DNA of 64,000 nt from Taibaiella sp. (lineage in GTDB: Bacteria > Bacteroidota > Bacteroidia > Chitinophagales > Chitinophagaceae): positions 1-64,000 of the forward strand of contig JACDGL010000013.1 in NCBI GenBank assembly GCA_013815385.1. The letters are read 5' to 3'. Under the pieces are notes generated by a model. The model searched no databases. It was not told the DNA's origin and saw only the letters and a list, made by a program, of their open reading frames with translations. A program made the translations under genes and the position numbers. Shown one piece after another: positions 1,706 to 9,094 of the stretch. How positions within the stretch are numbered: position 1 is the stretch's first letter; each line of letters begins with the position of its first letter.

Positions 1706-2716
1706 CTATGCTAACCAATTGAGCTTGCGGATACGTTTAAAAAAATCTTTTTCCTTGTCTGCACAATTAATGAGTAGATCGCTCAGTTGGTCATAAGAAA
1801 TAACATCCGTTTGTCTTGCTTTCATAATGCGCGCAGCGCTATATGCGAAATTTCGCCACTGATCTCCTATAGCTGTTAACTCACGGGAAAACTCTTGCAG
1901 TTCTTCCCTTTTTAATAATTCCCCTGCTTCCTGTAGAAAAGCGGCATACAAATACCTGAAACCGGCACCACCGGTTCCTATTTCCTCCTGCATACGAATA
2001 ATATTGCCCAGGTATAAAGATGCCTGGCGGGGAGTAAGTTTTTTAGGATACTCCCTTAATTTCTTAGCAAGTGTATAAATACCATTGTTGCCAAACCACG
2101 GTACAGGGGGGGATAACATATACCACGCAGTCTTTTTAATCCCTTTCTCTATAGCAGTTTTTATATCTGGTTCTTTTGATAGCTCCTCTATATAATACAT
2201 GAAGCCATTAGGTTCTGGCGTTCCTTTTGCAAAACGGGCTTTTGCTAAATCTTCAGCAGATATAGTGGTCGCATGTTCCATCACAGGGTCACTAACTAGG
2301 TAATGGCCATTTTCCTTTCCGTAAATGACCAGATTGTGTGCATTGAAGTGAAAACGAAAGGCTTCCGGTAAATAGGGCAAATAATAAACGCTGCTCAACA
2401 TCCCAACGGGGTAACCTTTCTCTAGGGCAGCATCCAGTGCCTGCATTGCTTTTTCTGGCGATTTGAATTTTTCTGTATGTACCCGTATGTTCAAAGCTGC
2501 CGTTACCCGTTTAAAGATAGCACCCGGCCAGGTTCTAAAAGTAGTACCTGGAGTACCACCAATCTTTAAGAAGGGGAGATGGCCAAAAAATATACCTGAC
2601 CCTATACCAAACGCTAGTGGTTCACTTATTTTTAATCCTTTATAGCCTAACAGGTTTGATGTAACACCGCTCTCGCAATGAGCATGTTGCTTATGGGTAA
2701 AATGAATATTGTTCAT
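1706..2716 (-). CDS. BtrH N-terminal domain / DUF4872 protein
   Basis: A 336-aa cytoplasmic protein with no signal peptide. Residues 10-145 fit the BtrH_N family (C39-peptidase-like fold). A Cys at residue 14 follows His-Ala-His. His127 lies in AHNLVIYG and Asp143 in YLVSDP, giving a plausible Cys-His-Asp triad spaced as in C39 folds. The C-terminal half corresponds to the DUF4872 extension usually attached to BtrH_N. In butirosin biosynthesis BtrH transfers an acyl side chain from a carrier protein to the aminoglycoside. Stand-alone homologues in Bacteroidota occur near aryl-polyene or lipid-type clusters (recalled, not checked). The substrate here is unknown. Its ATG overlaps the TAA of the upstream 140-aa gene by one base (TAATG), so the two are translationally coupled. 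Confidence 0.75.
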   Translation of the reverse strand: MNNIHFTHKQHAHCESGVTSNLLGYKGLKISEPLAFGIGSGIFFGHLPFLKIGGTPGTTFRTWPGAIFKRVTAALNIRVHTEKFKSPEKAMQALDAALEKGYPVGMLSSVYYLPYLPEAFRFHFNAHNLVIYGKENGHYLVSDPVMEHATTISAEDLAKARFAKGTPEPNGFMYYIEELSKEPDIKTAIEKGIKKTAWYMLSPPVPWFGNNGIYTLAKKLREYPKKLTPRQASLYLGNIIRMQEEIGTGGAGFRYLYAAFLQEAGELLKREELQEFSRELTAIGDQWRNFAYSAARIMKARQTDVISYDQLSDLLINCADKEKDFFKRIRKLNWLA

Positions 2717-3138
2717 TAAGTGGATACTTGATCTTGCTTTCCAAAGTTGATTAATTCCTCTTTGGAGATATTAAAAGTTTGAGCGTACACATTCAGGACT
2801 GCGTTATCTAGCCGTGCGAAAACCTCAGGTTTCATATGGCGGCGCACTTGCCACTGCCATTTGCCTACATATTTGGCTACAAGGGCAATATCCATAAGGC
2901 AGTTCTGCATAAAAAAAGCGATCGGGCTCAATTCACCGGATATTACCTTCAGTTTAGTTTCGAGGAGGTCGCTTTCTACAGCATCCCATGCCTGTTTCAT
3001 AGCAACATTCTCTGCTTCCCACCCTGCTGAATTTACACCCACATATTTGCCATCTTTATCTGTGGCATATACAAGCTTATGAAGCTTATCACCTTCTTTA
3101 AAGTCTTTTGGATCCTGGGGCACATCATTTACATCCAT
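2716..3138 (-). CDS. Conserved hypothetical protein coupled to the BtrH-like gene
   Basis: A 140-aa, probably cytoplasmic, mostly helical protein. I do not recognise the family. It has no signal peptide or membrane segment. A Trp-rich middle (VGKWQWQVRRHMKP) precedes helices ending in NISKEELINFGK. The start ATG is at 3136-3138. Its stop codon shares one base with the start of the BtrH-like gene, so the two proteins are very likely made together in equal amounts and may form a complex or act in sequence. No TAnnTTTG box was seen directly upstream. Confidence 0.7.
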   Translation of the reverse strand: MDVNDVPQDPKDFKEGDKLHKLVYATDKDGKYVGVNSAGWEAENVAMKQAWDAVESDLLETKLKVISGELSPIAFFMQNCLMDIALVAKYVGKWQWQVRRHMKPEVFARLDNAVLNVYAQTFNISKEELINFGKQDQVST

Positions 3139-3244: not shown

Positions 3245-5467
3245 ATGAAACTAACAACCATGCGAAAGGGAAGTATATTTTCTATATTTATTCTGATACT
3301 ATTGTCCGGTTTATACACCTCGTCATACGGGCAACGAAGGTCGAAGATAGTTGTCAAAAAAATAAGTATATACGATGTAGATAGCCTATTAAACCCTGTT
3401 CCCCGCCAAAGGCAGCTATGGCACGATAAAATAGATAAAGAGCAAAAACGTGCAAACGCAGGCCTTTATTCAGAAGATAGCTTATACACCAAAATACTTA
3501 CCAGGGCCATTATAAAAGATGTAAATCATTTGCAGGTAATGATTGAGAACCTTCCATCAAAGGGAGAAGCATTCACTGATAATCAAAATAAGATATTGTA
3601 TTTGCGGGCAGTATGGCAGATGCTTAGCAAATTTAATAGTGATACCAAAGTTGATCCTGTTTATTACAAGAAGCTGGTGATCAATATGCACGATATGATA
3701 ATAGCTCATTATGAAGGAAAACTGATAGAATTTTCTAAAACCCATGTGAGCATACAAAGCATAGAGAATGGAGAAATGCTTTTGGATAAGAGTCCGGAAG
3801 CGAGGGCATATATATATGAAGAGATGGGTAAGCAAGACCCAAGATTAATGATAAAACATCTTAACGAGTTCGCTGATGAGCCTTATGCCCAGCCGGTAAT
3901 AGCTGATGCCGCCAAAGTATTGCCTAACGAAATATTTAATTATGCCTCCTCTACCAACTTTAAATTACGGAGTGCTGTACGCAGAAGCACAGACCCGTTG
4001 GTTGTAGCTATTGTTGAGATCGCAGATAGATCGAAATTTCCCCTAAAGGCAATGGCCTTTCTGACAGATATATATCATAAAAGGAAAACAATTGCGCAGA
4101 TAGATTCCATAACTAATAATCCTGATCTCTACTATCGTAACCTCGTAAGGTTAAAAATTGAAAATGACTCGCTTGGCGGAATGACCTATACCGATGAACT
4201 GTCCTATCGGGGATTGCGGTATATAAGGGAAATGAATGACCTGCATGAATCGCCTGATGCCGTGCGTTTTAAATGTATTGAGGGGATGTCTCCTGTAGCT
4301 TTATATTTTCTGATGGTTTACGGGCAGGATGAAATATATACAAGCAGTTTTCTCGGCACTTTTAAACGCATGATGGAACGGCAAAAGCCAAAGAATACCA
4401 ATGAACTGCTGGATACCCTTCATGATGATCATTTTCGCACATTCATACGTATGTGCGCAGGTTACAACACCCTGAATGAGTTCCTGTCTGCAATGCCGGA
4501 TACCGATAAAACCAATCTTATGCAAAGCTTTATTGCCGGGCTTGGAAAGGGTAAAGATGATGATCTTGAGGATGCGGTTGACGTGGCTGATGCTTTTGGT
4601 AGCATCAGGGATTCAGCACTATCATCTTTTCTGAAGTTGCAGGTAAAAAGAAATTATGAAGCTTCTTACAGAAAAAAAAGTAAGAAAGGCATGATCGTTT
4701 ATGCGCTCCTTGCTACATTATTTGAAGGAGCTAAAAGTGACGATAATGATACATCTGCGATACGGCAATCTGAGACACTTCGCATCCCGCCAATCAATAT
4801 GGTTCCATTTAAAAAGCTTCTTAATGATAGCGGGGTGGTGTATGAGCAATTCTTCTTCTTCGGTGATGAAGATGGCAAAACATCCTATGCCAGTTTTCTC
4901 GGAAATTTCAGAGATGGGAAATGGAAGATTACCACTGAAAAACAATGGGCCGTCATATCATCCACTACTGGCAAGCCCATAGTTATCTATGCTAACCTGC
5001 CAATACCTGAACCCGGCGATGAGGAAGCGCAGGATGCGCTGGGTAAGTATCTTGATTTGCATGAGATACATCCTACTATCATTGTGCATCGTGGGCATAG
5101 CTACCATCTACCTTTGACAATGGATAAGCTGACAAAGTATAATAAGATAGTAATGCTGGGATCATGCGGGGGGTATCATAATCTGGCCGTTGTACTGGAT
5201 CATTCACCGGATGCCCATATTATATCTTCCAAACAAACAGGTACTATGGCAGTGAACGAGCCAATTATTAAGGCTATAAATGACCAGCTATTACTCGGCA
5301 ACGATATAAACTGGATAAAGATCTGGCGCGAATTGAACGAGTATTTTGAGAAGAAAAAAGACGTAAAAGAAAAATTCTCTGATTATGTACCTCCTTATAA
5401 AAATCTTGGCGCTATCTTCATAAAATCATACCGCAGAATATCTAATACCGGACCTACTGATGAGTAA
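3245..5467 (+). CDS. Secreted HEAT-like protein with possible clan CD (caspase/CHAT-like) C-terminus
   Basis: A 740-aa protein of unrecognised family. The signal peptide is about residues 6-29 (SIFILILLSGL, then SSYGQ), giving periplasmic or outer-membrane location. ATG 3260 gives a cleaner signal peptide. Residues about 170-330 are helical with HEAT-like spacing. The region from about 545 to the end looks like an alpha/beta domain. A strand ending in a His pair (TIIVHRGHSYH, His615 and His618) is followed by a helix and a second strand KIVMLGSCGG with Cys641. A hydrophobic strand then His-Gly, and a hydrophobic strand then Ser-Cys, is the signature of clan CD cysteine peptidases (caspases, gingipains, CHAT). 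The His-Cys spacing of 23-26 is shorter than usual, so this is an inference. The gene overlaps ppk2 by 8 bp, implying co-transcription. Confidence 0.75.
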   Translation: MKLTTMRKGSIFSIFILILLSGLYTSSYGQRRSKIVVKKISIYDVDSLLNPVPRQRQLWHDKIDKEQKRANAGLYSEDSLYTKILTRAIIKDVNHLQVMIENLPSKGEAFTDNQNKILYLRAVWQMLSKFNSDTKVDPVYYKKLVINMHDMIIAHYEGKLIEFSKTHVSIQSIENGEMLLDKSPEARAYIYEEMGKQDPRLMIKHLNEFADEPYAQPVIADAAKVLPNEIFNYASSTNFKLRSAVRRSTDPLVVAIVEIADRSKFPLKAMAFLTDIYHKRKTIAQIDSITNNPDLYYRNLVRLKIENDSLGGMTYTDELSYRGLRYIREMNDLHESPDAVRFKCIEGMSPVALYFLMVYGQDEIYTSSFLGTFKRMMERQKPKNTNELLDTLHDDHFRTFIRMCAGYNTLNEFLSAMPDTDKTNLMQSFIAGLGKGKDDDLEDAVDVADAFGSIRDSALSSFLKLQVKRNYEASYRKKSKKGMIVYALLATLFEGAKSDDNDTSAIRQSETLRIPPINMVPFKKLLNDSGVVYEQFFFFGDEDGKTSYASFLGNFRDGKWKITTEKQWAVISSTTGKPIVIYANLPIPEPGDEEAQDALGKYLDLHEIHPTIIVHRGHSYHLPLTMDKLTKYNKIVMLGSCGGYHNLAVVLDHSPDAHIISSKQTGTMAVNEPIIKAINDQLLLGNDINWIKIWRELNEYFEKKKDVKEKFSDYVPPYKNLGAIFIKSYRRISNTGPTDE

Positions 5468-6206
5468 AATAAAACTAGAGGAAATATCAACCCGCGCTCC
5501 GCATTCTGAAAAGAAGGACGACACAAAGGAAGAGTTATCGAAGATACTAAAGGAACTCGATGACCTGCAAAACCTATTGTACGCAGAGAGCCAGCATTCT
5601 GTATTAGTAATAGTACAGGGTATGGATGCGAGCGGCAAGGATGGCCTGATAAGGGACGTATTTACCAGCATGAATCCACAGGGTGTAAATGTTACCTCGT
5701 TCAAAGAGCCAACCAAAGAAGAAATAGCCCATGACTTTTTATGGAGGGTGCATAAAGAGGCGCCCGCAAAAGGCATGATGGTGATCTTTAACAGATCGCA
5801 CTACGAAGATGTATTGATAACCAGGGTGCATGGGATGATAGATGATGACACGGCAAAGATTAGGATGAATGCTATCAATGATTTTGAAAGATTACTGACA
5901 GAGAACAATAAAACCACTATTCTGAAATGCTACCTGCACATATCGCATAAGGAGCAACGGAGCCGCCTGCAGGAACGCCTTGATAACCCAAGGAAAATGT
6001 GGAAATACAATGAAAACGATTTTACTGAATCTAAATTGTGGGACAAGTATATGAAGTGTTATGAGGACGTCTTTGATAAATGTAAGGAGGTGCCCTGGCA
6101 TATAATACCCTCAGACCAGAATTGGTATAAATCATACCTCATAGCTAAGTTATTGCGCGATACATTAGTTGGATTAAAAATGAATTTTCCCGGGGTGAAG
6201 AAGTAG
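5460..6206 (+). CDS. ppk2: PPK2 family polyphosphate kinase
   Basis: A 248-aa cytoplasmic enzyme of the polyphosphate kinase 2 family, which transfers phosphate between inorganic polyphosphate and nucleoside mono- or diphosphates. The Walker A loop is GMDASGKDG at residues 54-62. The Walker B-like motif FNRSHYEDVLITRVH is present, as are the lid residues KMWKYNENDF. The length of about 250 aa is that of single-domain PPK2. The sequence style looks like class III (able to act on both AMP and ADP), but class assignment needs a tree. The start ATGAGTAA overlaps the end of the 740-aa gene by 8 bp. It converges with the alpha/beta hydrolase, leaving only 2 bp between stop codons. Confidence 0.93.
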   Translation: MSKIKLEEISTRAPHSEKKDDTKEELSKILKELDDLQNLLYAESQHSVLVIVQGMDASGKDGLIRDVFTSMNPQGVNVTSFKEPTKEEIAHDFLWRVHKEAPAKGMMVIFNRSHYEDVLITRVHGMIDDDTAKIRMNAINDFERLLTENNKTTILKCYLHISHKEQRSRLQERLDNPRKMWKYNENDFTESKLWDKYMKCYEDVFDKCKEVPWHIIPSDQNWYKSYLIAKLLRDTLVGLKMNFPGVKK

Positions 6207-8038: not shown

Positions 8039-9094
8039 TTAGCACCTATCTACCACCCATTTGGCAACAGCCGGCGCTAATTCTTTTTGTGATTTGCTGC
8101 CGACAAATACACCTATATGGCCGCCGGGGAAAGCATATACTTTCTTATCCTTGCTGCCTATTGCATCCATTACCGGCAGTGTACTTTCGTTAGGGATGAT
8201 GGTATCATCTGTAGCATACACATTCAGGAAAGGAACGGTCATATTTTTCAGGTCTACTATACGGCCACCCAGTTCCAGCTCGCCTTTTATAAGCTTGTTA
8301 TCGCGGAAAAGGTCTTTGATGTATTTGCGGTACATTTCGCCGGGCATAGCAGGCAGATCGGTCTTCCAGTTTTCCATGCGCAGGAAGTTGAGCATCTTAT
8401 CTTTATCATCGAGTGAATCGATAATGCCGAGATACTTGCTGATGTTCATGCTGGGCTTCAGCATGGCAAAGGAACCATCTATCATTTCGCCCGGTATAGT
8501 GCCTACGCAATCTACCATGTTATCTACATCAATATACTTTGTCCACTTGTAAAGCATGCAGGCCTTTGTAGAAAAATCGTAAGGAGCTACATAGGTAGTC
8601 AGCGATTTCAGCTTTTCAGGATAAAGCGCTGCATAGATCATAGAATAGGTGCCGCCCTGGCAAATGCCCATCTTGTGTATCTTTTCTACATTAGCCTCTT
8701 TGCGTACAAAGTCGACCGCATCATTCATATAGCCATCTATATAATCTTCCATCGTCAGGTAGCGATCTGCTTTGGTAGGGTAGCCCCAGTCCATAATATA
8801 GATATCCAGACCTTCTTCCACCAGCTTTTTCATCAAGCTGCGATCCTGAAGATCCAGCACATCATGACGGTTGAGCATGGCAAATGATACCAACACAGGC
8901 GTGGCGCACTTAGCGGGCGTTTCGCGGGTATAGTGGTATATCTTTACTTTATCGCGCTGCCAAACCAGTTCTTTAGGAGTATTAGCGACCACCACATCGT
9001 CAGCGTTTATCTGCTGTAGGACTTCATAGCCCTTAGCCAGTTTTTCAGTAGTTCTTGCGAGGTCCTGTGCTATATTAGCTGGATTCCAATTCAT
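8039..9094 (-). CDS. phaC: Class III-type poly(R)-hydroxyalkanoate synthase subunit PhaC
   Basis: A 351-aa alpha/beta-fold enzyme that polymerises hydroxyacyl-CoA into polyhydroxyalkanoate. The length of about 350 aa and the start without the N-terminal extension of class I/II enzymes fit class III. The lipase-like box is GICQGG with nucleophile Cys145. Asp296/297 lies in YATDDTIIP and His326 in PGGHIGVF, completing the Cys-Asp-His triad. MDWGYP near 101 is also a class III feature. Class III enzymes normally need PhaE (class IV needs PhaR), and neither is adjacent, nor are phaA or phaB. The partner may be elsewhere, or the enzyme may be divergent. A TACCTTTG box lies 24 nt upstream. Confidence 0.9.
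   Translation of the reverse strand: MNWNPANIAQDLARTTEKLAKGYEVLQQINADDVVVANTPKELVWQRDKVKIYHYTRETPAKCATPVLVSFAMLNRHDVLDLQDRSLMKKLVEEGLDIYIMDWGYPTKADRYLTMEDYIDGYMNDAVDFVRKEANVEKIHKMGICQGGTYSMIYAALYPEKLKSLTTYVAPYDFSTKACMLYKWTKYIDVDNMVDCVGTIPGEMIDGSFAMLKPSMNISKYLGIIDSLDDKDKMLNFLRMENWKTDLPAMPGEMYRKYIKDLFRDNKLIKGELELGGRIVDLKNMTVPFLNVYATDDTIIPNESTLPVMDAIGSKDKKVYAFPGGHIGVFVGSKSQKELAPAVAKWVVDRC

Follow-up and report, generated by a model that had tools for sequence, protein, structure and literature searches.

A putative exported cysteine peptidase of the clan CD kind, close to core in the family Chitinophagaceae

Closest described relatives

In cysteine peptidases of clan CD the catalytic His sits at the C-terminal end of strand b3 and the catalytic Cys at that of b4. 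The minimal core is b1-b4 with a1-a3, and caspases have an additional small beta section, placed after b3 and before a3 (PMC4357240). The gene described here lies in a stretch of 64,000 nucleotides from Taibaiella sp. (positions 1 to 64,000 of contig JACDGL010000013.1, assembly GCA_013815385.1), referred to below as the window. Its product has an export-type N-terminus, a long body predicted to be all-helical, and a C-terminal domain with a near-invariant His/Cys pair. The preferred reading, with a probability of about 0.62, is that of an exported cysteine peptidase of the clan CD kind that would work in the periplasm or envelope, with His618 and Cys641 as its catalytic dyad.

3245..5467, + strand: studied gene, encoding a putatively exported protein of 740 amino acids from an unnamed family (ATG open reading frame; homologue searches)

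Proteins with a CHAT domain (PF12770), among them DdvA (8rot/8rw5) and TPR-CHAT (7zoq), likewise have a C-terminal caspase-like domain and are the best structural matches to the full model. The CHAT alignment shows an invariant His and Cys, with a second, near-invariant His four residues before the first (H166/H170/C249), an arrangement comparable to H615/H618/C641 in the studied family. The distance from His to Cys, however, is 79 residues in the first row of the CHAT alignment against 23 here, and our comparison of the two consensuses finds Trp-x-Val-x-Asp in CHAT where the studied family has Lys-Gln-x-Gly. The clostripain-like C11 peptidases (PF03415), represented by iotapain (6nag/6n9j), give the best match to the domain in VIA-align, and the match covers the whole domain. 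Their His and Cys are at the ends of successive strands, as in the studied domain, but in PmC11 the pair is His133-Cys179, 46 residues apart instead of 23 (both from PMC4357240). C11 frames in the class are 382-483 residues long, too short to hold a helical body of the studied kind.

The gingipain-like C25 peptidases (PF01364) are common in the same genomes and have a fairly compact His-Cys link, of 34 residues in 27 of 28 sequences; an earlier note on this DNA had called the spacing shorter than that of gingipains, and against these sequences it is. In separase (C50), a eukaryotic protein, the spacing is about 26 residues. In layout separase resembles the studied bacterial protein, when the two are compared by description: a caspase-like domain at the C-terminus follows an N-terminal part made of helices (PMC4626109). 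The link of 23 residues is the shortest among those measured in this analysis.

Conserved motifs of the C-terminal domain

4790..5449, + strand: predicted caspase-like alpha/beta domain, C-terminal, residues 516-735 (AlphaFold2; VIA-align)
4865..4876, + strand: D541-x-D543-G544 loop after strand b1 (homologue alignment)
5087..5104, + strand: H615-R-G-H618-S-[YF] motif at the end of b3, with His618 as the proposed general base (alignment; strand 612-615)
5159..5170, + strand: G639-[SG]-C641-G642 motif at the end of b4, with Cys641 as the proposed nucleophile (alignment; strand 635-638)

His615, His618 and Cys641 are encoded at 5087-5089, 5096-5098 and 5165-5167, respectively, which separates Cys641 from His618 by 23 residues and from His615 by 26. 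The gene, the positions of the two motifs and the 23-26 residue spacing had been described in the earlier note, and all were confirmed from the coordinates of the open reading frame.

Conservation was assessed in two sets. Removal of duplicates and of the locus itself from 72 rows left 68 non-redundant homologues, in which His615, Arg616, Gly617, His618, Ser619, Tyr620, Gly639, Ser640, Cys641 and Gly642 are all invariant. A further 31, mostly distant, bring the set to 99 homologues that are 21% to about 73% identical, 32 of them below 34%. Cys641 is retained in 99/99 of these and His618 in 98/99, so the conservation of the pair, which had been fixed in advance as one of two tests of the earlier proposal, speaks in its favour. 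Even at identities down to 21%, H615, R616, G617, S619, G639 and G642 are each present in 99/99. The loop after b1 is nearly as constant (D541 98/99, D543 97/99, G544 98/99), as are Lys663 (96/99), Gln664 (95/99) and Gly666 (97/99).

Only 17 of 700 aligned columns are kept in at least 98 of the 99 homologues. They include all nine positions of H615-R-G-H618-S and G-S-C641-G, and the hypergeometric probability of nine motif positions all falling within the best 17 of 700 columns is about 2e-16. The remaining eight are Tyr486, Asp541, Gly544, Asn671, Trp690, Trp694, Tyr714 and Pro717. Among the 18 other His or Cys residues in the 700 columns, His334 reaches 94/99 and all others are at or below 73/99.

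Predicted fold and structural comparison

AlphaFold2, run with 41 sequences, modelled the mature protein with a predicted local distance difference test score (pLDDT) of 88.1 and a predicted template modelling score (pTM) of 0.73; the corresponding values for the C-terminal domain alone are 92.7 and 0.91. The order of elements in the domain model, as assigned by DSSP, is b1-a1-(hairpin)-b2-a2-b3(His)-a3-b4(Cys)-a4-b5-a5. This contains the chain order of the minimal clan CD core, b1-a1-b2-a2-b3-a3-b4, with an extra hairpin (model residues 45-49/53-58) between a1 and b2. In the model His618 is three residues past b3 (612-615) and Cys641 three past b4 (635-638); taken with the alignment, this puts a conserved His at the end of b3 and a conserved Cys at the end of b4, as in clan CD. 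The 23 residues between them form a link with one helix, and it is short because the small beta section of the caspase type is missing.

When VIA-align was run with the domain over Foldseek's 1000 best chains, the C11 peptidase iotapain (6nag) came first, with Z 8.7 and 183 aligned residues at a root-mean-square deviation (rmsd) of 4.0, spanning 13-220 of 220. Two further C11 rows stand at ranks 9 and 22, and the three C11 rows align 181-183 residues. With the full model, DdvA CHAT chains (8rot/8rw5) take ranks 1-2 (Z 8.8, 161-162 aligned, rmsd 3.3-3.4). Iotapain is third with Z 8.7, but at an rmsd of 6.1, another iotapain entry is sixth (Z 7.8), and TPR-CHAT 7zoq is at rank 8 (Z 7.6); CHAT or C11 proteins make up 5 of the 50 rows. 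A CHAT profile built from 27 sequences of relatives (28 were available; L152 was left out, here and in the alignment) independently places the CHAT domains of these chains, at 836-975 in 8rot/8rw5 and 581-777 in 7zoq, within the ranges aligned by VIA-align. The matches to C11 and CHAT chains, at a borderline Z of 8.7-8.8, may point to the parallel sheet of clan CD, with the order 2-1-3-4. The structural case is made by two caspase-like kinds, CHAT and C11, heading the VIA-align lists with wider coverage, together with a conserved His and Cys that are rightly placed.

Sequence and profile searches

By profile, the domain belongs to none of CHAT, C11, C14 and C25. CHAT PF12770 gave no row for the protein at E values up to 10, nor for 30 family members at E up to 1, and PF03415 (C11), PF00656 (C14) and PF01364 (C25) gave none for either. 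Pfam scans of the 30 members returned 17 families with a best E of 0.012, among them no peptidase of the caspase-like kind. For the full protein the sole Pfam row was a sub-threshold SF3A3 (E 0.1); NCBIfam and PADLOC each gave 0 matches, PHROGs two weak rows (E 0.11 and 0.26), and the sequences of the PDB three rows to Otoferlin and Pumilio (E 0.03-0.07), none significant. The domain profile found one row in the PDB, at E 0.62. There is no match to PF00656 in the whole genome of the window, and the only C25 match in that genome is on another contig (C35). A motif search based on the CHAT spacing matched just 3 of 28 sequences and was not used.

YabG, which has been proposed for clan CD and has His-Asp in place of His-Gly, is described in PMC12445089 as resembling other clan CD proteases in having no sequence homology to other members. 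This is contrary to PMC4626109, which gives about 25% identity between clan CD families. A literature search found no description of the family of the studied protein, which is weak evidence, as subscription journals are poorly covered.

N-terminus and helical body

3245..3334, + strand: probable signal peptide, residues 1-30 (...SSYGQ) (sequence)
3404..4777, + strand: all-helical body, residues about 54-511 (AlphaFold2 model)

The sequence of the N-terminus, MKLTTMRKGSIFSIFILILLSGLYTSSYGQ, has the character of an export-type signal peptide, in agreement with the signal peptide proposed earlier. A crude rule for a hydrophobic core flagged 73 of 85 full-length homologue open reading frames; on inspection, some of the 12 that it missed also seem to carry a signal. 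The body contains 28 helices of at least 4 residues and 0 strands of at least 3 in the AlphaFold2 model. It had been called HEAT-like; the model bears out its all-helical character, but a Pfam scan of the protein gave no match to a HEAT family.

Distribution and copy number

Within its family the gene is close to core; beyond it, its occurrence is patchy. The profile of the C-terminal domain finds it in 186/195 genomes of the window's family (163/167 of those of high quality) and in 99/101 genera, and in 128/298 genomes of the order, 23/395 of the class and 15/395 of the phylum at E <= 0.01, where the weakest class and phylum rows (E 4.1e-4 and 0.004) may be chance. The protein search found homologues in 40 of 59 genomes, the window's own counted. 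The 45 loci on named contigs, those of Taibaiella soli and Flavipsychrobacter stenotrophus included, are labelled Taibaiella, Flavipsychrobacter, other Chitinophagaceae, Sphingobacteriales, one uncultured Bacteroides and unclassified Bacteroidetes.

The genome of the window has a single copy. Tandem copies occur in families f8, f20 and f10 (L099, L100, L105); the window's own family has them as well, in two genomes (L007, L101). At L099 (2930-8293) and L100 (883-6213) a copy of about 700 residues stands beside one of about 1,080, both with the His and Cys motifs, and in the longer copies the N-terminal part gives a second match to the helical body. Almost every f8 genome listed has two matches; where their lengths are given, one is of about 700 and one of about 1,070-1,220 residues.

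Evidence for a peptidase and alternative explanations

Several results weigh against a clan CD peptidase. By VIA-align's own note a Z near 8.7 is borderline, and most other rows in its domain list are small GTPases, from Z 8.6 downward, with 122-151 of 220 residues aligned. Foldseek found no match to the full model at E <= 0.001; its first 50 rows for the domain alone hold no clan CD peptidase and are mostly small GTPases (MglA, Arl3), the best being MglA at E 6.5e-4. In profile-profile comparison with hhalign, scores for the domain profile were 19.7 for CHAT (E 0.06), 18.3 for ARF, 17.2 for C14, 12.3 for C11 and 11.0 for C25, none of them significant, and an earlier run with a shallower query likewise gave nothing significant. 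The family alignments came from cleanly excised matches (28/30 CHAT, 7/8 C11, 28/30 C25, 24/30 C14, 27/30 ARF), and 21 unrelated neighbour families used as controls reached at most 17.3, although their shallower alignments make them an imperfect control. Without guidance, both hhalign runs aligned Cys641 with the catalytic Cys of CHAT. The catalytic Cys of C14 and of C25 was matched in the second, deeper-query run only, and that of C11 in neither. In the second run it was His615, not His618, that fell on the catalytic His of C25, and His615, conserved as strongly as His618, could itself be the base. The residue that follows His618 is Ser619 in 99/99 homologues, not the usual Gly of the His-Gly dipeptide, and for this reason the claim is limited to a domain that works like clan CD, short of formal membership. 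Finally, one homologue, a divergent paralogue of 935 residues in a tandem pair (L105, 3462-6266), has Tyr at position 618 while it keeps His615, Cys641 and the other motifs; it is possibly an inactive partner of the adjacent copy.

What was proposed in the earlier note survives in part. The predicted fold, whose comparison had been set in advance as a test, is compatible with caspase, CHAT and C11, but the scores are borderline and Foldseek alone favours small GTPases. The idea of a clan CD peptidase keeps a conserved dyad and the expected order of elements, but gains no significant profile similarity to CHAT, C11, C14 or C25. The domain probably functions in the manner of a clan CD peptidase. 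On this account the protein would cross the inner membrane and serve as a caspase-type cysteine peptidase of the periplasm or envelope, in which His618, just past b3, would activate the thiol of Cys641, just past b4. By analogy with separase and TPR-CHAT, whose helical N-terminal parts are credited with holding or selecting the substrate or with controlling the peptidase, the long helical body probably has such a role here. Since the gene is near-universal in its family and mostly present in one copy, the reaction would be a housekeeping processing step rather than one of defence or virulence. The sequence and the model show the gene, the export-type N-terminus, the near-invariant His/Cys pair and the predicted order of elements, from which catalysis, location, the part played by the body and the substrate are inferred.

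A broader proposal, put somewhat below even odds, is that of an undescribed family of exported clan CD-type cysteine peptidases (or transpeptidases), with a separase-like layout and a minimal caspase-like domain, that is near-universal in a large family of Bacteroidota and carries out a step, perhaps an obligatory one, in the processing of envelope proteins. If the peptidase reading is right, almost all members of a large environmental family would export a caspase-like peptidase to which the libraries searched give no annotation, a near-core enzyme with a clear catalytic pair and mostly a single copy, and a compact exported branch of the caspase-like fold would stand beside CHAT, C11, C14 and C25.

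DdvA, which heads the full-model matches, is described as an anti-sigma factor in the titles of its entries and in PMC4374960, and this, with the L105 paralogue that retains the other motifs without His618, would suit a caspase-like domain that serves binding or signalling, its motifs being kept for structure or metal binding and not for catalysis. Inactive enzymes, however, would seldom keep a Cys in 99/99 and a His in 98/99 homologues, and the explanation is considered unlikely. Marginally less likely again is an enzyme with the same fold and His/Cys pair that is not a hydrolase, but a transpeptidase or ligase joining exported proteins to something else, in the manner of PorU and GPI transamidase. 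It can draw on all of the fold and dyad evidence and on the export-type N-termini, and a near-core envelope role suits a processing enzyme; against this, the relatives already have C25 proteins (37 of the 39 searched), some of which may be PorU.

The least probable explanation, and a rather remote one, is a different three-layer alpha/beta domain, for example a GTPase-like one, in which loops of a common topology carry the conserved His and Cys. It would account for the small GTPases in the Foldseek and VIA-align lists, but the domain has no P-loop (GxxxxGK[ST]). The loop after b1 is instead G-D-x-D-G, and the position of the P-loop Lys (Lys545) is Lys in 45/99 homologues; as that Lys is not conserved, the GTPase idea was set aside. 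The GTPase rows also align fewer residues than the three C11 rows, and an exported protein would not encounter GTP.

Gene neighbourhood

5460..6206, + strand: PPK2-family polyphosphate kinase gene (PF03976, E 2.3e-64; TIGR03709 above cut-off)

The start of ppk2 (5460) lies inside the final 8 bases of the studied gene, giving an overlap of 8 bp, as the earlier note had stated. The same note had found this an odd pairing, but as a family trait it does not stand. The next gene downstream, on the same strand, encodes PPK2 in 27 of 44 close loci (there are 45, but one has no room), in 0 of 20 distant or tandem loci and in 3 of 19 further loci, the latter two sets being hand-picked for spread and not random. 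In a quick-build tree of 84 rows, rooted at the midpoint after L049, L068, L070 and L075 had been dropped, the 30 rows with PPK2 within 1500 bp all fall in one clade of 46 rows (support 100), with about 5 gains or losses. A functional module of ppk2 and the studied gene was rejected, as the linkage is confined to one subclade; for the same reason the 8 bp overlap is a local arrangement that says little on function.

Three arrangements recur, one of them being the tandem copies described above. In the window's subclade the arrangement is glyA, studied gene, ppk2, hydrolase and PHA synthase, and GlyA is encoded at most two genes upstream in 25 of 41 close loci. Elsewhere in the family a divergent response regulator is found upstream, and in most cases a histidine kinase gene accompanies it. 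No close locus (0 of 41) has this arrangement, but 20 of 39 in the two hand-picked sets do, or 20 of the 27 of these 39 that are of the window's family and lack PPK2. These loci are L101, L110-L115 and 13 of the 19 in L255-L273, and several of them have an ABC transporter and ATP synthase genes on the downstream side. Over the hand-picked sets an ABC transporter is encoded within two genes downstream in 13 of 39 loci, and ATP synthase genes within seven genes in 12 of 39.

To the left of the studied gene in the window, on the opposite strand and divergent from it, are DarH- and DarG-like genes of flexirubin/dialkylresorcinol pigment biosynthesis (1706-3138, - strand). DarH is above the NCBIfam cut-off, while DarG is below the equivalog cut-off but above that of the wider DarG family. 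To the right of ppk2 are an alpha/beta hydrolase gene and then a gene for the class III poly(R)-hydroxyalkanoic acid synthase subunit PhaC (8039-9094, - strand; above the NCBIfam cut-off). PhaC, ppk2 and the alpha/beta hydrolase form a neighbourhood that is retained in many close relatives. At one locus (L075, 5866-8723) the homologue is broken into three overlapping frames and the adjoining ppk2 into two, perhaps through sequencing errors or decay.

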